NCBI RefSeq assembly: GCF_001434835.1
Contig: NZ_AZDV01000005.1
Span: forward strand, 62,001-126,000
Source: Levilactobacillus acidifarinae DSM 19394 = JCM 15949
GTDB taxonomy: Bacteria; Bacillota; Bacilli; Lactobacillales; Lactobacillaceae
DNA: 64,000 nucleotides
Reading direction: 5' to 3'
Position 1 is the stretch's first letter. Each line of letters opens with the position of its first letter. A program made the position numbers and the translations under genes. The notes under the pieces were generated by a model that saw only the letters and a program-made list of their open reading frames with translations, was not told the DNA's origin and searched no databases. Below are positions 155 to 53,823 of the stretch, piece after piece.

Positions 155-437
155 GATAAAAGCGATAAGAAAGCAGAGTAAGCTTCTTCACCCTGACAGT
201 GAATTGGGACTAGTGAAAACCCAACCCAGACCTTGAATTAGCTGAATAACCCTTTCTTAAGTTTCTGGCTGAAATCCCGTGCGGAGAGTAGGTTTAGACG
301 TTGACCGGTACGTTACCAACGGTGGAGCATGGTTGTGCTCTTGTTTGAGGTGGTCTATTTGAGATAGGCAATCTGGGTGGTACCGCGAAAAGTCTTTCGT
401 CCCTGTATTTAGGGATGGAAGACTTTTTTATTTTGTC
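155..437 (+). promoter_or_regulatory. T-box riboswitch, asparagine type, upstream of asnA
   Basis: The T-box core GGGTGGTACCGCG lies at 375-387 and is followed by a terminator hairpin (388-427) ending in a T run. Stem I shows the loop-E elements AGTA (177-180) and GAA. After GAA the bases read T-AAC-C, so the specifier codon is most likely AAC (Asn), matching the downstream asparagine synthetase. Uncharged tRNA-Asn is expected to stabilise the antiterminator and allow asnA transcription. Confidence 0.9.
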
Positions 438-29952: not shown

Positions 29953-31131
29953 TTAGAATTCGCGGTGGCCCCCCAGGTAGACCTGTTTGTCGGCCTGGAC
30001 CACGTTGGCCGTGTCGGCTAAGGGATCGTTCTTTAAGACTTGGAAATCGGCGAACTTGCCGACCTCTAGGGTGCCGTAATCGTCCGCCACGCCTAAGAGC
30101 TGTGCGGAGTTTAGGCTTGAGCATTGGTAGGCCTGAGCGGGGGTCATTCCCAATTTGGTTAGGAGACCGAACTCCTTAGGCGTCAGGTCAAACCCGTTGA
30201 ATGGGGTTCCGGCGTCCGTGCCGCAGGTGAATTTAACGCCTAATTGAAAGGCCTTGGTAAGGTTGACGTAGGTGTCATCGAGGGCGTCGGCCGCCTTCTT
30301 GACCTCCCAATCGGGTAAGTGCCCCTTCCCGTATGCGGGGATTACCCATTCGGCAATCAGGGTCGGCGTTAGGTACGTGTTTTGCGCCGCCATTTGTTTA
30401 GCCTCATCGGGGGTCACGTAAAAACCGTGCTCGATGGAGTCTACCCCGGCGTCTAAGGCGTTTTGAATCCCCGGATTTCCTTCTGCGTGGGCGGCGACGA
30501 CCCGGCGCTTGTGATGGGCTTCTTCGACGGCGACGTGCATTTCGGCCGTAGAGAGTTGGGGGTCTTCCATGAAGTCATTAGGGGTCATGACGCCGCCGGT
30601 GGCAATCACCTTGACACTGTCGATTCCCAACTTAAACGCTTGCCGGATGGCCTTACGCATTTCGTCGGGAGAATCGACCAGGTTACCACTATGGGGGCCA
30701 TCCCCGTGCCCCCCGGTCATGGTAAAGGCGCGCCCGGACGTCAAAAAGTGCGGGGTGTGAGGGAGTTTGCCGTCGGCCTGCATCCGTTTGAGGGCAACGT
30801 CGACGTCGTACTTGGTTCCACATTGGCGTAAGAAGGTCACCCCGGATTTTAACAGGGCTTGTAAATTCTGGGTGGCGAATACGGCGGCTTCGGCCTCGGT
30901 TTGGCCATAATTGCCGTTAAAGGATTGCGGATCGGCGGTGACGTGGGTGTGGACGTTTAAGAAGCCGGGCATCACGTATTGACCGTTTAAATCAACGAGG
31001 TTCTCGGTGGCGGTGGGGGTTCCGGTTCCGCGAGCGGTCAACCGACCGGTTTCGTTAACGGTAAACCAGGCATCCGGGGTGTTGTGATCGGTACGACCAT
31101 CGAATAAGGTGCAATTAAAAAAAGTTGTCAT
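29953..31131 (-). CDS. Metal-dependent amidohydrolase, prolidase-like (copy 1)
   Basis: The 392-residue cytoplasmic protein has the binuclear amidohydrolase motifs: HTH (H61, H63), the lysine expected to be carboxylated in DSVKVIATGG (K174), H215 in AAHAEG, H235 in SIEHG and D306 in GTDAG. This set is typical of bacterial Xaa-Pro or Xaa-Arg/Lys dipeptidases and imidazolonepropionase-like enzymes. No signal peptide. It starts 16 bases behind the peptide-binding lipoprotein gene, so import and cleavage of peptides in one T-box-controlled operon is a reasonable inference. A close paralogue lies at 33294-34475. Confidence 0.88.
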   Translation of the reverse strand: MTTFFNCTLFDGRTDHNTPDAWFTVNETGRLTARGTGTPTATENLVDLNGQYVMPGFLNVHTHVTADPQSFNGNYGQTEAEAAVFATQNLQALLKSGVTFLRQCGTKYDVDVALKRMQADGKLPHTPHFLTSGRAFTMTGGHGDGPHSGNLVDSPDEMRKAIRQAFKLGIDSVKVIATGGVMTPNDFMEDPQLSTAEMHVAVEEAHHKRRVVAAHAEGNPGIQNALDAGVDSIEHGFYVTPDEAKQMAAQNTYLTPTLIAEWVIPAYGKGHLPDWEVKKAADALDDTYVNLTKAFQLGVKFTCGTDAGTPFNGFDLTPKEFGLLTKLGMTPAQAYQCSSLNSAQLLGVADDYGTLEVGKFADFQVLKNDPLADTANVVQADKQVYLGGHREF

Positions 31132-31147
31132 GAGTAATTCCTCCTAT

Positions 31148-32755
31148 TTATTTCCAGTAAGCATATTGGTATTGGGCTTCGTTTAAAAGTGAGTAGGATA
31201 AGCCACCCACGTTCTTATTGATGAGCTTGGCCTCGGCCGGTTGGTAGAGGGGCAGGTAACCCTTAACGCTCATCAGATATTTATCGGCGGTCATCAGACC
31301 GTTGTAGCGGGCCAGACCACTCTGGGCGTTAGCCTTTTGCAAGAGTTGATTAAAGGTCGGGTCGTTCCAGTTGGTAAAGTTGACCGTGTTGCCTTTGGCG
31401 GCTAATTCGAGGTAGTCGTCGGCGTCTAACCAATTGGTGGACCAACCGGTGAGGTTTAATTCGAAAGTCCCGGCAAAGTCGCGGGCCACGTGTTGGGCGT
31501 GGGGAATGGCCGTGGTCGTGACGGTCAGGCCGGTCAAGTTCTTCTCCAAAACGGATTGGAGGTAGGTACCCACCTTCTTATCGTCATCCGTATCGTCGGT
31601 CAACAGATTTAAGGTGACCTTGGTTTTACCGGTCTCTTTTAAGTATTTCTGCCAGTAAGCTTTGGCTTTGGTGAGGTCTTGGGGGAGTTGATTTCCCACT
31701 TCACTCGCCATGTCTTGTCCCGTCTGAGGGTTCGCCTGGTCGCCACGAGGGACGGCGCTCAGGGCAGGCTTGGACCCGTCGTTTAAGACCTGACCAGTCA
31801 GTTGTTGCCGGTCGACCGCGTAAGAAACGGCCTGACGTAGATTTTCGGAGTTCGTGGCGGTCTTCTTACTGTTCACGTAGAGGTACTGTAGACGACCTTG
31901 CAGGTGGGTATGTAACTGACTATCGTTACTGTTGGCCCGAACGTACTGGCCACTGACCGTGGTTTCTTGCACCTTATTGGCCTTGAACAGATTTTCGGCG
32001 GTGGTTTCGTCCTTGGTGACCGCGACCTTGACCCGGTCGATCTTTACGTTTTTAGCGTTCCAATAGTGCGTGTTTTTGACGTAGTGCCAGGTCGAATTGC
32101 TCCCCGTCCAGCCAACGAGTTTGTACGGGCCGTTACTCAGGGTCTTGGACGCCATGGTTCCGTATTGGGCGCCGTATTTCTTCACGGTAGCGGTATTGAG
32201 GGGGTAATACTTGCTGGCGACCAGATCGTTGAAGTAGGGGACGGCCTTGGTTAATTGAATCCGTAACGTCGTTTGATTCAAGGCCTTAACCCCCAATTTA
32301 GTGGGCGCCAGCGTACCCTTTTGAACGGCCGCGTAATTTTTAAAGGCCGATAAGACGCTGGCATATTGCGCCTTGGTCTTGGGATTCGCCATGCGTTGCA
32401 AGGAAGTGACGAAGTCTTGGGCGGTGACGGCCTGTCCGTTGGCCCACTTCGCGTTTTTCTTGAGGATGAAGGTGTAGGTTTTACCCTGGTTGGTGGGTTT
32501 AACTACCTTGGTAGCGACACCGGGCACAATCTTATTAGACCGGTTATAGGTGTAAAGCCCCTCCATGGTCTGATAAATCAGACTGGCACTGTTGGTGTCG
32601 GTATCCTTGTTGGGGTCGGCCGTCGCCGGTTCGTCGGCGAGCGTGACGTTGAGCGTTTTATTCTGTGATTTTGTCTGGCCGGATGCCTGACCGCAGCCAC
32701 TTAACGCGACTAGGGCCAGTAAAGCGGTCGTGGTTAACCAAGTTTTATGAGTCAT
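31148..32755 (-). CDS. oppA: Peptide ABC transporter substrate-binding lipoprotein, OppA-like (copy 1)
   Basis: The 535-residue protein has a signal peptide with lipobox LSGC (Cys21) and the family 5 solute-binding layout (TLADEPATADPNKDTDTNS at the mature start, NGPYKLVGW and HYWNAKNVK further on). It captures peptides at the outer membrane face. Start ATG 32755 lies behind AGGAGG; a longer open frame reaching 32899 runs through the T-box terminator and is not real. No permease or ATPase gene is nearby, so it must use a transporter core encoded elsewhere. Controlled by a T-box. Confidence 0.93.
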   Translation of the reverse strand: MTHKTWLTTTALLALVALSGCGQASGQTKSQNKTLNVTLADEPATADPNKDTDTNSASLIYQTMEGLYTYNRSNKIVPGVATKVVKPTNQGKTYTFILKKNAKWANGQAVTAQDFVTSLQRMANPKTKAQYASVLSAFKNYAAVQKGTLAPTKLGVKALNQTTLRIQLTKAVPYFNDLVASKYYPLNTATVKKYGAQYGTMASKTLSNGPYKLVGWTGSNSTWHYVKNTHYWNAKNVKIDRVKVAVTKDETTAENLFKANKVQETTVSGQYVRANSNDSQLHTHLQGRLQYLYVNSKKTATNSENLRQAVSYAVDRQQLTGQVLNDGSKPALSAVPRGDQANPQTGQDMASEVGNQLPQDLTKAKAYWQKYLKETGKTKVTLNLLTDDTDDDKKVGTYLQSVLEKNLTGLTVTTTAIPHAQHVARDFAGTFELNLTGWSTNWLDADDYLELAAKGNTVNFTNWNDPTFNQLLQKANAQSGLARYNGLMTADKYLMSVKGYLPLYQPAEAKLINKNVGGLSYSLLNEAQYQYAYWK

Positions 32756-32795
32756 AGAAAAGCCTCCTAGCACAATTGATCTAAGGTTTGAGAAC

Positions 32796-33135
32796 AAAAA
32801 AAGCACCCTCATGGAAAAAACAACTTCCATAAGGGTGCAGTTCGCACGGTACCACCTTAATTTTCGCGACAAAAACGTCGCCTTTAGCATGAACGGCAAG
32901 GGGCCTAGACGCCGACGCTAAACTAGGCTTTTAGCGCTAGCGACCCTCGCGATTCACTGCACGGATAACGGGATGCTTCCCGGTTGAACACTTACTTGAA
33001 TTCGGTGGACGGCTCCGAAGGGATGTTCGTGTTGGGGTAACTGACCCGCTTGCACTAGACCGGGTTCGCTAACAGTCGTGACCAACACTACTGGACTTCA
33101 TCATCACTTTTTAATGTTCTAATCAATTGTTAATA
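32796..33135 (-). promoter_or_regulatory. T-box riboswitch of oppA copy 1, specifier probably Ile
   Basis: Minus strand: T-box core AAGGTGGTACCGTG, with the complement GGTACCACC at 32849-32857. It is followed by a terminator hairpin GCACCCT / AGGGTGC and a run of seven T residues (32802-32796). Stem I has AGTA, and on the other side GAA-C-ATC-C before CTTC. By analogy with the asnA leader the specifier is ATC (Ile). It controls the oppA-amidohydrolase pair. Confidence 0.88.
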
Positions 33136-33141
33136 ATTGCT

Positions 33142-33169
33142 AGTTTAGCACCGATTTTTGGATTGTCAA
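33142..33169 (-). promoter_or_regulatory. Promoter of T-box/oppA copy 1
   Basis: Minus strand: -35 TTGACA (33169-33164), 16 bases, extended -10 TGC-TAAACT (33147-33142). The same promoter sequence precedes copy 2. Confidence 0.78.
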
Positions 33170-33293
33170 CGCAAATTTGAAAACTGTTGTCGGTGTGTTA
33201 GTCGGTAAACTTGCTAAGTGGTTCGACCAAAAAGCGCGCCAGCGACCGTTTTTTGAGGGGAAGGGGGTCGCTAGCGCGCAGGCGGAAATTTAA

Positions 33294-34475
33294 TTAAAAT
33301 TCACGGTGACCGCCAAGGTAAACTTGCTTATCTGCTTGGACGACGGCGTGAACATCGGCGACGGGATCGGCTTTTAGAACTTGAAAGTCGGCGAACTTGC
33401 CCACTTCAAGGGTGCCGTAATCGTCGGCAACGCCTAAGAGGTTAGCGGAATTGATGCTGGAACACTGGTAGGCCTGGGCGGGGGTCATGCCGATTTTGGT
33501 GAGCATTTCGAATTCATGAGGGGTCTGATCAAAGCCGTTGAACGGCGTGCCAGCATCCGTACCACAGGTAAACTTAACGCCAATCTGGAAGGCACGAGAG
33601 AGATTGACATAAGTGTCGTCAAGGGCATCCTCAGCCTTTTTAATCTCCCAAGCCGGGAGTACCCCGATACCGTCCTTAGCAGCCGCCCATTCAGCGATTA
33701 ACGTTGGCGTGAGGTAAGTTCCCTGGGCCACCATCTGATGAGCTTCTTGTTCGTTGACGTAAAAGCCGTGTTCGATTGAGTCGACGCCGGCGTCGATGGC
33801 GTTTTGAATGCCAGGATTACCTTCGGCGTGAGCCGCAACGATGCGCCGCTTGTGGTGAGATTCCTCCACGGCCACGTGCATTTCAGCCACGGAAAGTTGC
33901 GGGTCCTCCATAAAGTCGTTGGGAGTCATCACGCCCCCAGTTGCCATGACCTTGATGCTTTCGGCACCATTTTTAAATGCCGTTCGAACGGCTTTGCGCA
34001 TCTCGCCGGGGGAATCGACCGCGTGACCACCGTGGGATGAATCGCCATGACCGCCCGTCATAGAGAAGGCTTTTCCGGAAGTCATCATGTGTGGGGTGTG
34101 TGGCAACTTACCGTCTTGTTGCATTCGTTTGAGGGCGATATCCACGTCGTATTCAGTACCACATTGGCGAATGTAGGTAACGCCGGACTGGAGTAATTGA
34201 TGCATGTTCTGCGTAGCGAAAACCGCTGATTCGGCTTCGGTGTGGCCATACGAGCCATCAGGGGTGTCAGGGCCCGCCGTGATGTGGGTATGGACGTTGA
34301 AGAAACCGGGCATCACGTATTGTCCGTGAAAGTCGACTTGTTGGTCAGCACTGGTGGGGGTTCCAGTTCCCCGAGCAGTGATGCGGCCAGTGTGGTCGTC
34401 AACCGTGAACCAAGCATTTTCCGTATTGTGTTCAGTGGCACCGTCAAAGAAATTGCAGTTGTAAAAAGTCGTCAT
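33294..34475 (-). CDS. Metal-dependent amidohydrolase, prolidase-like (copy 2)
   Basis: The 393-residue paralogue of the 29953 gene keeps all metal ligands: H62 and H64 (HTH), K175 (ESIKVMATGG), H216, H236 and D307. Differences are scattered, so both copies look functional and may differ in peptide preference. TGGAGGAA precedes the ATG. It lies 81 bases behind its oppA partner, a longer gap than in copy 1. No terminator is obvious behind it: the next downstream elements are the promoter and T-box of copy 1, so readthrough is possible. Confidence 0.87.
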   Translation of the reverse strand: MTTFYNCNFFDGATEHNTENAWFTVDDHTGRITARGTGTPTSADQQVDFHGQYVMPGFFNVHTHITAGPDTPDGSYGHTEAESAVFATQNMHQLLQSGVTYIRQCGTEYDVDIALKRMQQDGKLPHTPHMMTSGKAFSMTGGHGDSSHGGHAVDSPGEMRKAVRTAFKNGAESIKVMATGGVMTPNDFMEDPQLSVAEMHVAVEESHHKRRIVAAHAEGNPGIQNAIDAGVDSIEHGFYVNEQEAHQMVAQGTYLTPTLIAEWAAAKDGIGVLPAWEIKKAEDALDDTYVNLSRAFQIGVKFTCGTDAGTPFNGFDQTPHEFEMLTKIGMTPAQAYQCSSINSANLLGVADDYGTLEVGKFADFQVLKADPVADVHAVVQADKQVYLGGHREF

Positions 34476-34556
34476 GAGACATTCCTCCAGTTTTTTTAGT
34501 TAAGGGGTGAGTTGTGTGGAACGGATTGGTCACTTCCTCAAATGGTTTTAGACGTA

Positions 34557-36158
34557 TTATTTCCAATAGGCGTATTGATAGTGCGCTTCGTTCAACAATG
34601 AGTAAGTCAGACCACCAACCTTGTCACTGACCAATTTAGCTTCAGAAGGTTGATAGACGGGAACGTATCCCTTTATACTCATCAGGTACTTATTAGCAGC
34701 AATCAAGCCGTTGTAGCGTGCGATACCGGTTTGAGCATTGGTACTTTGCAGAAGCTGATTGTACTGGGTATCGTTCCAATTGGTGAAGTTGACGGAATTG
34801 CCCTTCGCGGCCAGTTCCAGGTAGTCGTCGGCGTCTAGCCAATTGGTGGACCAGCCAATCAAGTTGATATCGAACTTCTCGGCAAAGTCGCGGGCTACGT
34901 GTTGGGCGTGTGGTAGAGCAGTGATGTTAACGGTCAACCCTTTGAAATTCTTTTCCATGACGGATTGGATGTAGGTACCCACGTGCTTATCGTCGTCGCT
35001 ATCGTCGGTCAAGATGTTCAAAGTGACTTTGGACTTGCCGGTTTCCTTCAAATACTTTTGCCAGTAAGCTTTGGCTTTGGTCACGTCATGAGGTAACAGG
35101 TTACCCACTTCTTTAGCCATATCTTCGCCAGTTTGGGGATTGGCTTGATCACCGTAAGGAACGGCGCTGGTGGCTGCTTTGGATCCGTCGCCCAGGACGT
35201 GGTTGACCAATTGGTTGCGGTCGATCACGTAAGAGACGGCTTGACGCAGGTTTTCGGAGCTAGTCTTTGCTTGTTTACTGTTGAAGACCAGGAGGTTCAT
35301 GCGTCCCAGCAAATGAGTTTTCAGTTGTTTTTCGTTGCCATTGGACCGAACGTATTGGCCACTAACGGTCGTTTCTTGAATTTTACCGGATTTAAACAAG
35401 TTGGCCGCTGTCGTCTCATCTTTGGTAACAGAAACCTTTACATTGTTGATTTTGACGTTTGGGGCGTTCCAGTAATGGGTATTTTTAACGTAGCGCCAGC
35501 TAGAGTTACTTCCAGTCCAACCAACTAGTTTATAGGGACCGTCACTCATGGCCTTAACGGCGCTGGTTCCGTATTGGGCACCGTACTTCTTTACGGTTGC
35601 GGTGTTCAGCGGGTAATAGTCACTGGCCACCAAACTATTGAAGTACGGGACAGCTTTGGTCAGCTGAATTTGGAGCTTAGTCTTACTTAGGGCTTTGATG
35701 CCTAATTTTGAAGGGGCCATCTTGCCGTGCTGAACGGCATCGTAATTTTTGAAGGCCGAGAGAAGACTGGCGTATTGGGCCTTAGTTTTAGGATTAGCCA
35801 TTCGTTGTAGAGAAGTGACGAAATCTTGTGCCGTGACCTGTTGACCATTAGCCCATTTGGCGTTTTTCTTAAGCGTAAACGTGTAAGTCTTTCCGTGATT
35901 AGTCGGTTTAACGATCTTGGTCGCGACGCCGGGAACAATCTTGTTAGATCTGCTATAGGTGTAGAGACCTTCCATTGTCTGGGAAATGACACTACCGCTA
36001 TTGGTATCGGTGGATTTGTTCGGGTCGGCCGTCGCCGGTTCATCAGCTAAGGTGACGTTCAACGTTTTATTTTGAGTCTGGCCGTTGGCTTGGCCGCAGG
36101 CGCTTAGGGTGACCGCCAGCAGTAGGGCGGCGGGAATCATAAATAGTGAACGATGCAT
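34557..36158 (-). CDS. oppA: Peptide ABC transporter substrate-binding lipoprotein, OppA-like (copy 2)
   Basis: The 533-residue protein has lipobox LSAC (Cys21) and is highly similar to copy 1 along its whole length. Examples are the shared mature start TLADEPATADPNK and the C-terminal SLLNEAHYQYAYWK. Start ATG 36158 is behind TAGGAGG. It is also an orphan binding protein. Its T-box has a different specifier region from copy 1, so the two paralogues may be induced by different amino acid shortages. Confidence 0.93.
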   Translation of the reverse strand: MHRSLFMIPAALLLAVTLSACGQANGQTQNKTLNVTLADEPATADPNKSTDTNSGSVISQTMEGLYTYSRSNKIVPGVATKIVKPTNHGKTYTFTLKKNAKWANGQQVTAQDFVTSLQRMANPKTKAQYASLLSAFKNYDAVQHGKMAPSKLGIKALSKTKLQIQLTKAVPYFNSLVASDYYPLNTATVKKYGAQYGTSAVKAMSDGPYKLVGWTGSNSSWRYVKNTHYWNAPNVKINNVKVSVTKDETTAANLFKSGKIQETTVSGQYVRSNGNEKQLKTHLLGRMNLLVFNSKQAKTSSENLRQAVSYVIDRNQLVNHVLGDGSKAATSAVPYGDQANPQTGEDMAKEVGNLLPHDVTKAKAYWQKYLKETGKSKVTLNILTDDSDDDKHVGTYIQSVMEKNFKGLTVNITALPHAQHVARDFAEKFDINLIGWSTNWLDADDYLELAAKGNSVNFTNWNDTQYNQLLQSTNAQTGIARYNGLIAANKYLMSIKGYVPVYQPSEAKLVSDKVGGLTYSLLNEAHYQYAYWK

Positions 36159-36202
36159 GGGCAAAGACCTCCTAGGGATGTCAATCGATGCGGTGGTGAA
36201 CG

Positions 36203-36522
36203 ACAAAAAGCGCCCTCACGGAAAATGTTTCTCCGTAAGGGCGCAAGTCTTTGCACGGTACCACCTTAGTTGGTTCTCAACATGAACGGCGGCTCCTAGA
36301 GGCAATTTCTCACAGGCTAGGTCCTGTGGGGGCCACACCGCGATTCAAGTGCAAGGATAACGGTTGCGGCCGGTCGGGCTTACTAGCATTCAGCTGACAG
36401 TTCGGAAGGGAGTTCACGTGAGGCTGGGGTTCCCGCTTACACTAAACCGGGATCGCTTGACGCCCAAGGTCACGTTACTAGTCTTCTTCATCACTTTTTA
36501 ATTTTCTCATCGATTGTTAATG
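36203..36522 (-). promoter_or_regulatory. T-box riboswitch of oppA copy 2, specifier Leu or Ser
   Basis: Minus strand: T-box core AAGGTGGTACCGTG (complement GGTACCACC at 36257-36265), then terminator GCGCCCT / AGGGCGC with T run. In stem I AGTA faces GAA followed by CTCC and then CTTCC. This is one base shorter than in the other leaders, so the specifier can be read as CTC (Leu) or TCC (Ser). Confidence 0.88.
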
Positions 36523-36528
36523 ATTGCT

Positions 36529-36557
36529 AGTTTAGCGAGACAACCGAAAAATGTCAA
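36529..36557 (-). promoter_or_regulatory. Promoter of T-box/oppA copy 2
   Basis: Minus strand: -35 TTGACA (36557-36552), 17 bases, -10 TAAACT (36534-36529). Sequence behind the -10 (AGCAAT.ATTAACAAT) is shared with copy 1. Confidence 0.8.
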
Positions 36558-51424: not shown

Positions 51425-51683
51425 ATTAAAAGTAAAGATTAAGTCGAGAAGAGTAACGGGGCGGAGCCGCCCAGCAAGTTCGGAGAGCTGACAGCCGAAC
51501 CCGCGAACCCCCGCGAAGCGCATCCCGACATCGTCATGGTGAATGATCAGTAGCCGTGACCGAACCGTGGTCGTTACCCCACGCGCACTTTTGAGGAGTG
51601 CATTGAGTGAAAAAACAAGGTGGTACCGCGACGCATTCGCCCTTGTTGACCGAAACGGGTCAGCGAGGACGGGTGCTTTTTTG
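51425..51683 (+). promoter_or_regulatory. T-box riboswitch of oppA copy 3, specifier possibly Pro
   Basis: T-box core AAGGTGGTACCGCG at 51619-51632, then terminator with GACC/GGTC and CGCCC.../GGGTG arms and TTTTTT (to 51683). Stem I has AGTA (51451-51454), with CGGG/CCCG above it and GAA-C-CCC-C on the other side, giving CCC (Pro) by analogy with asnA. The lower helix is unclear, so the codon is tentative. Confidence 0.85.
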
Positions 51684-51702: not shown

Positions 51703-53325
51703 ATGAAAAAACAAGTGATGGGATTAGGGTTAAGCTTAGGGTTATTGGCCGTTGTTGGCCTGGCGGGTTGTGGGAGCACGCAAGCCCAGAGTAAGAGTAA
51801 AGATGCTACGTTGGGCGTCACGCTGGTGGGGAATCCCGCTACGGCGGACCCGGCGATTTCCGGGGACGTGAACAGTTCCAGTCTGATTTCACAGACCGAG
51901 GAGGGCCTGTACACGTTGGACAAGAACGGCAAGGTGGTCGCTGGCGTTGCCGAAAAGGTGGTCAAACCCACGCAAAACGGGACCGTCTACACCTTTAAGA
52001 TTAAAAAGAACGCTAAGTGGCAAAACGGTGATCCCGTGACCGCCCAAGACTTCGTGACCTCGTTTGATTGGCAGGTCAATCCTAAGTCCAAGTCGCAGGT
52101 CGCCAACAAGTTGAAATATTTGAAGAATTACGCCGCCGTGCAAAGCGGGAAAAAAGACCCGAGCCAATTGGGCGTTAAGGCATTGAATGTAAACACGTTA
52201 CAGTTGACCTTATCCAAGCCGCAACCTTGGTTGCCGGATATTCTGGCCACGGCCGAATACCCGATGAAGACGGATCTCTTTAAAAAATACGGCAGTCACT
52301 ACGGCACCTCGGCGGCTAAGACCATGTCCGAAGGGGCCTACAAGTTGGTCGGTTGGAGCGGCAACAGTGATAGCTGGACCTACGTGAAGAACGACCACTA
52401 CTGGAACGCTAAGAACGTTAAGATCCCAAAGGTCAGCGTGCAGGTGGTCAAGGATGCCGGCACGGCGGTCAACCTATTCAAGTCCGGCAAGGTGCAAGAA
52501 ACCTTCTTGACCGGTCAGTACATCAAGCAAAACGCCAAGAATCCCGAAATGACCACGACGTTGAACAGTTCGATGCGGTTCCTGGAATTTAACGACAAAC
52601 GGACCGTCACGCACAACACCAAGGTACGGCAAGCCTTCTCCGATATCGTGAACCGGACTCAGGTCACTAAAAATGTCTTACAGGACGGCTCGCAGGCCGC
52701 GAAGAGTCTGATTCCGACCGGTGACGGTAACGATCCCAAGACCGGCGAAGATTTCGCCAAGGAAGTCGGCAATCAGGTGAGCTATAACCCTAAAAAGGCC
52801 ACGGCTCTGTGGAACCAAGCTAAAAAGGAATTGGGCATCAAGAAGGCCAGTCTGGAACTATTGACGGCCGACACGGACGAACAACAACACGTCGCCCAGT
52901 ACCTGCAGCAACAGGCGCAAAAGTACATGCCGGGGTTGACCATTACGATTAAGGCGTTACCGTTGGCCCAACAAATCAACAAGGGTTCGCAAGGCAATTA
53001 CGATATCGACTTAGACGGTTGGACGACCGATTGGCGGGACCCCGCGGACTTCTTACAGATGGCCGATGGGACCAGTTCCGTGAACTTCACCAAGTGGAAT
53101 AACGCGCACTTCACCAATTTAATGAGTGAAATCGACAACACGGCGAAGTACACTACGCAGCAACGGTGGGATTTAATGAAGGAAGCTGACACCTACGTGA
53201 CCCAGCAAGCGGGCTTAGTTCCCCTGTATCAACAGGCGAAGGCTCACCTGGTTTCCAAGCAGGTCGGTGGGTTGAAGTACACCATGATGAGCGACGCGCA
53301 ATACAAGTACGCTTACTGGAAATAG
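51703..53325 (+). CDS. oppA: Peptide ABC transporter substrate-binding lipoprotein, OppA-like (copy 3)
   Basis: The 540-residue protein has lipobox LAGC (Cys23) and the family 5 binding-protein fold, with LVGNPATADPAISGD at the mature start and SEGAYKLVGW in the middle. The C-terminal SDAQYKYAYWK echoes copies 1 and 2, but the overall sequence is more distant. GAGGAGCG precedes the ATG. It has its own T-box but no amidohydrolase and no transporter core next to it. Confidence 0.93.
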   Translation: MKKQVMGLGLSLGLLAVVGLAGCGSTQAQSKSKDATLGVTLVGNPATADPAISGDVNSSSLISQTEEGLYTLDKNGKVVAGVAEKVVKPTQNGTVYTFKIKKNAKWQNGDPVTAQDFVTSFDWQVNPKSKSQVANKLKYLKNYAAVQSGKKDPSQLGVKALNVNTLQLTLSKPQPWLPDILATAEYPMKTDLFKKYGSHYGTSAAKTMSEGAYKLVGWSGNSDSWTYVKNDHYWNAKNVKIPKVSVQVVKDAGTAVNLFKSGKVQETFLTGQYIKQNAKNPEMTTTLNSSMRFLEFNDKRTVTHNTKVRQAFSDIVNRTQVTKNVLQDGSQAAKSLIPTGDGNDPKTGEDFAKEVGNQVSYNPKKATALWNQAKKELGIKKASLELLTADTDEQQHVAQYLQQQAQKYMPGLTITIKALPLAQQINKGSQGNYDIDLDGWTTDWRDPADFLQMADGTSSVNFTKWNNAHFTNLMSEIDNTAKYTTQQRWDLMKEADTYVTQQAGLVPLYQQAKAHLVSKQVGGLKYTMMSDAQYKYAYWK

Positions 53326-53512: not shown

Positions 53513-53585
53513 TGGGCAGTCAGGGGATCGAACCCTGGACCCACGGATTAAGAGTCCGTTGCTCTGCCAGCTGAGCTAACTGCCC
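53513..53585 (-). tRNA. tRNA-Lys (CTT)
   Basis: A 73-base cloverleaf on the minus strand: acceptor GGGCAGT/ACTGCCC, D arm GCTC/GAGC, anticodon stem ACGGA/TCCGT with loop CTCTTAA (anticodon CTT), T arm CAGGG-TTCGATC-CCCTG, discriminator A. CCA is not encoded. Identical to the copy at 53751-53823. Confidence 0.97.
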
Positions 53586-53750: not shown

Positions 53751-53823
53751 TGGGCAGTCAGGGGATCGAACCCTGGACCCACGGATTAAGAGTCCGTTGC
53801 TCTGCCAGCTGAGCTAACTGCCC
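53751..53823 (-). tRNA. tRNA-Lys (CTT), second identical copy
   Basis: Same 73 bases as 53513-53585, including anticodon CTT and no encoded CCA. The flanks GATATGA before and CATATCTTTTC after are also shared, while the terminators differ. The two copies are separate transcription units in direct repeat. Confidence 0.97.

Follow-up and report, generated by a model that had tools for sequence, protein, structure and literature searches.

Tandem Ile- and Leu-reading T-box operons for OppA-type lipoproteins and putative amidohydrolases, within a group of eight OppA paralogues behind T-boxes in Levilactobacillus acidifarinae

Background

T-box control of uptake genes is familiar from lactobacilli: Wels et al. 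2008 (PMC2494555) describe T-box-controlled ATP-binding cassette (ABC) systems for methionine (Met), isoleucine (Ile), histidine (His) and tryptophan (Trp), which are presented there as amino acid transport (for Met, of precursors and co-factors as well, and with one L. plantarum system left open). The leaders considered below are of the same class, with the same anatomy and the same codon logic, and that account likewise predicts cargo from the amino acid specificity of the leader. A second point of reference is the Opp system of lactic acid bacteria, with which the locus has in common lipoproteins of SBP family 5 and one OppBCDF core; a third is the TrpX operon of Streptococcus suis (PMC9382623), in which, as here, a T-box is linked to a substrate-binding protein, described in that case as part of tryptophan uptake and not as an OppA-type peptide binder. 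The stretch of DNA analyzed here, "the window", comprises 64,000 nucleotides of Levilactobacillus acidifarinae DSM 19394 (contig NZ_AZDV01000005.1, positions 62,001 to 126,000) and carries, in tandem, two operons in which a T-box leader precedes genes for an OppA-type lipoprotein and an amidohydrolase. We put at roughly 70% the probability that these are T-box-attenuated operons, one tuned to Ile and the other to leucine (Leu), within a set of eight OppA paralogues that share a single pump.

A cassette in duplicate

Positions 29953-36557 of the window are taken up by two tandem minus-strand units with the same order of parts, a promoter-like site and a T-box leader being followed by the genes for an OppA-type lipoprotein and a cytoplasmic amidohydrolase. 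In the direction of transcription they read:

36529..36557, minus strand: promoter-like site of the upstream (Leu) cassette, TTGACA-17-TAAACT
36234..36500, minus strand: T-box leader of the upstream (Leu) cassette (RF00230, 89.4 bits, E 4.6e-19)
36410..36412, minus strand: CUC (Leu), specifier codon in the specifier loop of Stem I (by Rfam alignment column, position counted by eye)
36210..36244, minus strand: intrinsic terminator of the upstream leader (-28.6 kcal/mol, z -7.4)
34557..36158, minus strand: SBP2, OppA-type peptide-binding lipoprotein (PF00496; lipobox LSAC)
33294..34475, minus strand: AH2, amidohydrolase, COG1228-like (PF01979; AlphaFold2 model pLDDT 89.6, top PDB match 3MTW)
33226..33282, minus strand: hairpin and T run 3' of AH2, probably the end of the upstream unit (-29.1 kcal/mol, z -6.0)
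33142..33169, minus strand: promoter-like site of the downstream (Ile) cassette, TTGACA-16-TAAACT
32828..33113, minus strand: T-box leader of the downstream (Ile) cassette (RF00230, 84.1 bits, E 1e-17)
33022..33024, minus strand: specifier codon AUC (Ile) (by Rfam alignment column, position counted by eye)
32803..32838, minus strand: intrinsic terminator of the downstream leader (-26 kcal/mol, z -7.5)
31148..32755, minus strand: SBP1, OppA-type peptide-binding lipoprotein (PF00496; lipobox LSGC)
29953..31131, minus strand: AH1, amidohydrolase, COG1228-like (PF01979)

Open reading frames, domains and leaders bear out what had been noticed from the letters alone (the "sequence-only reading"), namely that a whole cassette is duplicated in tandem with its order and direction intact and that both lipoproteins keep their lipoboxes (LSGC in SBP1 and LSAC in SBP2). 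The lipoproteins match the Pfam family SBP_bac_5 (E 6e-67 for SBP1 and 1.9e-67 for SBP2) and the enzymes match Amidohydro_1 (E 6.1e-42 for AH1 and 1.3e-46 for AH2); promoter-like sites are not commoner in the region than in shuffled sequence. The copies are 78% identical in protein for both genes and 72% identical in DNA. For the amidohydrolase pair the nonsynonymous divergence (dN) is 0.17 and the synonymous divergence (dS) 4.1, that is, saturated, while for the binding-protein pair dS could not be computed; because the enzymes combine this low dN with saturated dS, the duplication is judged to be old and both copies to be kept by purifying selection.

Reading the leaders

Both cassette leaders span RF00230 at full length, yet their 84.1 and 89.4 bits lie below its gathering score of 93, which is why a scan at default Rfam thresholds detects neither; a lenient search found both. 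Genome-wide (2.92 Mb in 30 contigs) there are 33 T-box matches, only seven of them at or above the gathering score.

Aligned to the Rfam model, the downstream leader presents AUC (Ile) and the upstream leader CUC (Leu) as specifier. Throughout a genus sample of 35 Levilactobacillus genomes the assignment holds without exception: AUC in 20 of 20 downstream-type and CUC in 13 of 13 upstream-type leaders (33 leaders from 22 genomes). The reading frame of the Leu type is fixed by one leader (L067) with a full-length loop, since it reads GAA-A-CUC; the TBDB rule, which takes as specifier bases 2-4 counted from the end of its loop, gives the same result as reading from the stem. Both leaders carry a UGGU bulge, and the genome contains tRNA-Ile(GAU) and tRNA-Leu(AAG), each with a discriminator A (by eye) that can pair with it. 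On the strength of structure, terminators and cognate tRNAs, the assignment of both leaders as transcriptional T-box riboswitches appears well supported.

(A technical note: a script that placed the specifier by helix pairing only returned the cognate codon in just 7 of 16 controls and was dropped; it was often one base off because the helix can be extended. Codons were finally read by alignment and by eye, and the by-eye reading was cognate in all 16 controls, the leaders of 10 tRNA synthetases, of asnA and of five Met genes, the control genes being named by eye and their leaders read with gene identity known. Rfam columns gave six of nine synthetase leaders correctly; pheS, serS and thrS were off by one (ileS not among them), as was L019 (Met) among the binding-protein leaders read in this way.)

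Eight T-box-linked binding proteins and a probable shared pump

The two cassettes are not alone in this genome. It holds 15 SBP_bac_5 (OppA-family) genes, and eight of these lie directly behind T-boxes, which read Ile (2), Leu, Met (2), His, arginine (Arg) and Trp; the chance probability of eight in 15 is 9e-13 for an assumed 2800 genes. (Among the 33 T-boxes, L178-L180 were read for neighbors only, and L018 is without an assigned codon.) The genome-wide Rfam search places no T-box before the other seven binding-protein genes, four of which adjoin the OppBCDF core. One such core was located, through its two oligo_HPY ATPases; its Opp3B component is above the NCBIfam cut-off and Opp3C scores 447 of 450 bits. 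With 15 OppA-family proteins and one core identified by its ATPases, the idea of a "self-contained" salvage module has to be given up; the companion suggestion, that the binding proteins dock on a shared Opp core, is made plausible by the finding of that single OppBCDF. Judged by their specifiers (Ile vs Leu) the two copies are not equivalent, and the cassette is part of an eight-member set and no lone oddity.

The binding proteins have partners that differ with the leader: AH1 in the Ile cassette and AH2 in the Leu cassette, an M20 peptidase-like protein with the other Ile leader, and another M20-family enzyme with the His leader. (These last two T-box operons, in which the partner of the OppA-type protein is a peptidase or hydrolase of the M20 family, are found in L172:3343-6125 and L173:2848-5860, His and Ile.) The Arg member lies within the window:

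51432..51647, plus strand: a further such T-box, the third in the window, with CGC (Arg) as specifier by alignment (RF00230, 65.4 bits)
51703..53325, plus strand: Arg-class OppA-type binding protein (PF00496)

Orthologues of this Arg-class protein, at identities of at least 79%, occur in 34 of the 35 genus genomes. At most 30 genus loci were read per class, the match lists being longer, and over these loci each class keeps to its amino acid with one exception: Arg codons in 30 of 30 leaders (27 CGC and 3 CGG), His codons in 4 of 4, Trp codons in all 14 leaders found in 15 loci, Met codons in 30 of 30 (29 by pattern and one by eye) and Ile codons in 10 of 11 leaders of the Ile/M20 class. The exception (L209, in genome G005) reads CUC and is a second, apparently independent Ile-to-Leu change. 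One locus (L188) has no T-box core in the stretch read, its strand having possibly been turned wrongly. In two other genera (60 SBP loci in 14 genomes examined, again from longer match lists) an Arg-class leader reads CGG (L327) and two His-class leaders read CAC (L344 and L375).

The enzymes and their predicted substrates

The closest structures to the AlphaFold2 model of AH2 (pLDDT 89.6) are 3MTW (TM-score 0.90), then 2QS8, 3BE7 and ochratoxin amidases. Six residues of AH2 (H62, H64, K175, H216, H236 and D307) are identical in 16 of 16 aligned sequences; from knowledge of the family and alignment to 3MTW we take them to be the metal ligands, and the earlier observation that both amidohydrolases keep theirs stands. 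Fold and metal-ligand positions fit the binuclear amidohydrolases designated here as COG1228-like (a number taken from a reference title, not from a COG search).

According to PMC11342369, Xaa-Arg/Lys is cleaved by the enzyme of 3MTW, while that of 2QS8 acts on dipeptides whose C-terminal residue is Ile, Leu, Phe, Tyr, Val, Met, Trp or Thr; the title of the 2QS8 entry names a bound methionine. As far as family and leaders allow prediction, AH1 and AH2 most likely act on an aliphatic amino acid bound in a dipeptide or in some other amide. Xaa-Pro, Xaa-Arg and Xaa-Lys dipeptides, which the sequence-only reading had put forward for assay, look less likely than Xaa-hydrophobic ones because the specifiers name Ile, Leu, valine (Val) and Met; the NCBI equivalog for Xaa-Pro dipeptidase (NF051886) has a cut-off of 500 bits, which the two enzymes miss at 232 and 234 bits.

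A third amidohydrolase paralogue of the genome (L085, at G000:C5:390085-391269) is 47% identical and has a divergent binding protein nearby; the stretch fetched around it contains no T-box core.

Spread and history

The amidohydrolase is encoded in 22 of the 35 genus genomes, in all 22 as part of a T-box/binding protein/enzyme unit; AH2 itself is 97% identical to its counterpart in Levilactobacillus zymae DSM 19395. Both units are present in 11 of the 22 (Leu always upstream), the Ile unit alone in nine and the Leu unit alone in two; L. brevis ATCC 14869 (L092) is a strain with both cassettes. The T-box/binding protein/enzyme unit recurs in Secundilactobacillus (L106 and L107) and Lentilactobacillus (L108), and the pairing is thus conserved beyond the strain in which the sequence-only reading had met it.

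Which specifier came first? In a tree of the binding proteins only (excluding proteins of fewer than 330 residues, such as the L068 fragment, and L104) the Leu rows make up one side of a branch with bootstrap 92 and SH-aLRT 95, and 91% of 200 bootstrap trees have a single origin of CUC. Nine rows from outside the genus have a codon: seven read AUC (L106, L107, L108, L109, L116, L117 and L120) and two GUA (L115 and L118); a second L108 protein and L111 are in the tree without an assigned codon. Since seven of nine outside rows read AUC and the tree has one CUC origin, Ile is likely to be ancestral, Leu having probably arisen once after duplication near the base of the genus. The number of specificity-determining columns that separate the Ile from the Leu clade is two in the amidohydrolases and five in the binding proteins.

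Further afield, a family search found a relative at E <=1e-60 in 137 of 397 genomes. Forty stretches around the best-scoring enzyme relatives outside the genus were examined by motif and eye, and in 11 of them a T-box precedes the enzyme or its binding protein. It directly precedes the enzyme in L114 (Ile), L115 (Val), and L138 and L147 (Met). In the last two, AUG-reading T-boxes abut amidohydrolase relatives with no binding protein between. (A motif match reading CAC in L114 was rejected; it lies in sequence before the leader, whose loop reads AUC, and L114 was relabelled AUC in the amidohydrolase comparison set.)

How the cassettes would work, and how far this can be trusted

The following sequence of events is proposed. 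Uncharged tRNA-Ile, at the downstream leader, or tRNA-Leu, at the upstream leader, would pair with the specifier codon and the UGGU bulge; the antiterminator would thereby be stabilized and transcription would enter the lipoprotein and amidohydrolase genes. The lipoprotein would bind peptides outside the cell and pass them to the single OppBCDF pump, and once a peptide is inside, the cytoplasmic amidohydrolase would free the scarce amino acid from it. Behind the two copies would lie an old duplication, with a switch of one leader from Ile to Leu, and the OppA paralogues behind all eight T-boxes (Ile, Leu, Met, His, Arg and Trp) would feed the common pump.

These steps do not all stand on the same footing. 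The leaders, their codons, the conservation of both, the gene order and one core recognized by its ATPases are observed. Induction by starvation would follow from T-box biology; capture of peptides, their handover to Opp and the release of an aliphatic amino acid inside the cell are predicted from the protein families; and a preference of each binding protein for peptides containing the amino acid of its codon is conjectural. We only infer the cleavage step, because HAEG takes the place of HAHG in these enzymes. The proposal that a T-box here governs peptide capture together with a peptidase-like enzyme has accordingly held for the leaders, the lipoproteins and the cytoplasmic amidohydrolases, the peptidase activity being putative.

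One can go a step further, tentatively and at somewhat less than even odds, and regard the whole set as codon-addressed import: shortage of a tRNA charge would select, through the T-box, the OppA paralogue (in several cases with its peptidase) for peptides that supply the amino acid in question, all of it passing through one Opp pump. The Ile/Leu tandem would then be a case of subfunctionalization in which specifier codon and binding protein changed together.

A number of observations weigh against these interpretations: 1) In the leaders, both specifiers are followed on the 3' side by C, at a position for which a conserved purine has been described (PMC7583486). Of the 13 CUC leaders, 12, including that of this genome, have a specifier loop with one base fewer, so those 12 taken by themselves might also allow UCC (serine, Ser). 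The match to discriminator bases is mixed over the set: many Met leaders, L030 of this genome among them, have UGGC, and the His leaders have UGGA or UGGC against a discriminator C in tRNA-His (for His, TBDB waives the discriminator criterion); 10 of 14 Trp leaders have a UGGC that pairs with the discriminator G of this genome's tRNA-Trp. 2) In the enzymes, 3MTW, the Xaa-Arg/Lys structure, is marginally closer than 2QS8, and position 218, next to a metal ligand, is Glu (HAEG) where five aligned PDB relatives have His (HAHG), which means that the substrate may not be an ordinary dipeptide. HAEG is found in 47 of 49 amidohydrolases (one has HAQG and one was unread) and, by count, in 46 of 51 of an overlapping second set (the rest HAQG or unread). 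In ochratoxinase, docking is reported to put the carboxylate of the substrate close to His191, His287 and His289 (PMC11342369). Glu218 would fill the slot of the second His of HAH that docks this carboxylate (mapped by motif and not by alignment to 4C5Y), and may signify either a changed hold on the end of the substrate or a different amide substrate. 3) In its distribution, the cassette is absent from 13 of the 35 genus genomes; the binding-protein frame of one lone Leu-type unit (L068, in G025) is broken, and in another genome (L073, in G016) the upstream, Leu-type amidohydrolase is internally shortened to 344 residues, without about residues 236-282. No T-box core was found in the other 29 of the 40 outside stretches by a core pattern that misses variants, and most of these also have no binding protein beside the enzyme; T-box coupling is therefore not universal, and the enzyme also occurs outside such units. 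The Ile, Leu, Val and Met specifiers of the amidohydrolase units are suggestive, but several of them differ from AUC by a single base, so that the part of chance is not small. 4) In the wider set, one Met-class locus of the other genera (L379) has no T-box in view, and no codon could be assigned to a His-class locus there (L354, 55%) or to several more of the leaders in those genera.

What else might such a set of leaders be for? In general, OppA proteins discriminate little between the side chains of the peptides that they bind, and the paralogues appear to share one pump; the leaders might then form an OR gate, in which any of several amino acid shortages raises general peptide uptake and the specifier need not match the cargo. 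That specifiers can switch, from Ile to Leu in the amidohydrolase clade and once more in the M20-linked class (L209), is also what such a gate would permit. We nevertheless regard it as rather unlikely, and less so than any other alternative considered here. Over the genus loci read, the amino acid of a class stays constant, also where the codon changes synonymously between CGC and CGG; one Arg-class and two His-class leaders of other genera retain it as well (CGG in L327, CAC in L344 and L375); and the classes differ in the peptidase that they carry, or have none. Constancy of the amino acid within a class and differing peptidases are a better fit to dedicated cargo, with the proviso that inheritance alone would give much of both.

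A different alternative leaves the leaders untouched and changes the cargo: the amidohydrolases may not be peptidases and may instead hydrolyze N-acyl, gamma-glutamyl or lactoyl conjugates or similar amides of aliphatic amino acids, which the lipoproteins would import. Glu218 in place of the His of characterized relatives, the ochratoxin amidases among the relatives in fold and the missed Xaa-Pro dipeptidase cut-off all lean this way. The OppA-type partner, the Ile, Leu, Val and Met leaders and the M20-family enzymes of sister operons point instead to peptides, as does the agreement of fold and metal positions with dipeptidases and carboxypeptidases; we consider non-peptide amides an unlikely cargo, by a shade more so than the OR gate.

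That the upstream leader reads UCC (Ser) in place of CUC (Leu) is improbable. A fixed frame of GAA-N-codon does yield UCC in 12 of 13 leaders, and the distance varies in pheS, leuS, serS and hisS leaders; the stem-anchored reading, the gap in the Rfam alignment and the TBDB rule all give CUC, as does the loop of L067, and the leuS leader of this genome has an equally short loop, GAA-CUU. Least probable of all is a pheromone or signal-peptide module with PrgZ-like binding proteins and an amidohydrolase that inactivates the signal: among the PDB matches of SBP1, PrgZ (4FAJ, E 7.6e-80) comes second to a protein named oligopeptide-binding protein (6NPO, E 8.8e-94), and leaders that respond to tRNA charging suit nutrition.

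Other features of the window

A T-box at 156-407 (plus strand) reads AAC (asparagine) and precedes an asparagine synthetase-like (AsnA-like) frame, the gene being named by eye. Two tRNA genes at 53513-53585 and 53751-53823 (minus strand), 165 bases apart, have identical scores and alignment letters; their anticodon region is CUCUUAA.

Comparison with described systems

The portions of the T-box, regulon and proteolysis literature surveyed contain no T-box-controlled OppA-type proteins and no example of this pairing with an amidohydrolase, and it is quite possible that tables or TBDB list such leaders; the main text of PMC2494555 uses none of the words opp, peptide, dipeptidase and amidohydrolase. 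The interest of the arrangement is this: the cargo of OppA paralogues is hard to predict from sequence, and if the leaders name the cargo, then eight binding proteins of a single genome can be labelled by their codons, which would provide a testable link between tRNA charging and the choice of peptide. The matter bears on how food protein supplies lactobacilli with those amino acids that they are unable to make, and the Ile/Leu pair is a natural case for a change of T-box specificity after gene duplication.

Set beside the COG1228 enzymes Cc2672 (3MTW), Sgx9355e (2QS8) and ochratoxinase (4C5Y), AH1 and AH2 have a common fold (TM-scores of 0.85-0.90, normalized to query length) and a common set of HxH, Lys, His, His and Asp; they differ in sequence, with 26-30% identity in structural alignments, and in having Glu218 for the His of five PDB relatives. 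Unlike in the Opp system of lactic acid bacteria, 11 of the 15 binding proteins are encoded at a distance from the core, and eight of these 11 follow T-boxes. Unlike the ABC systems of PMC2494555, the target of control is a stand-alone OppA-type binder with an amidohydrolase, present in two copies that answer to different codons.

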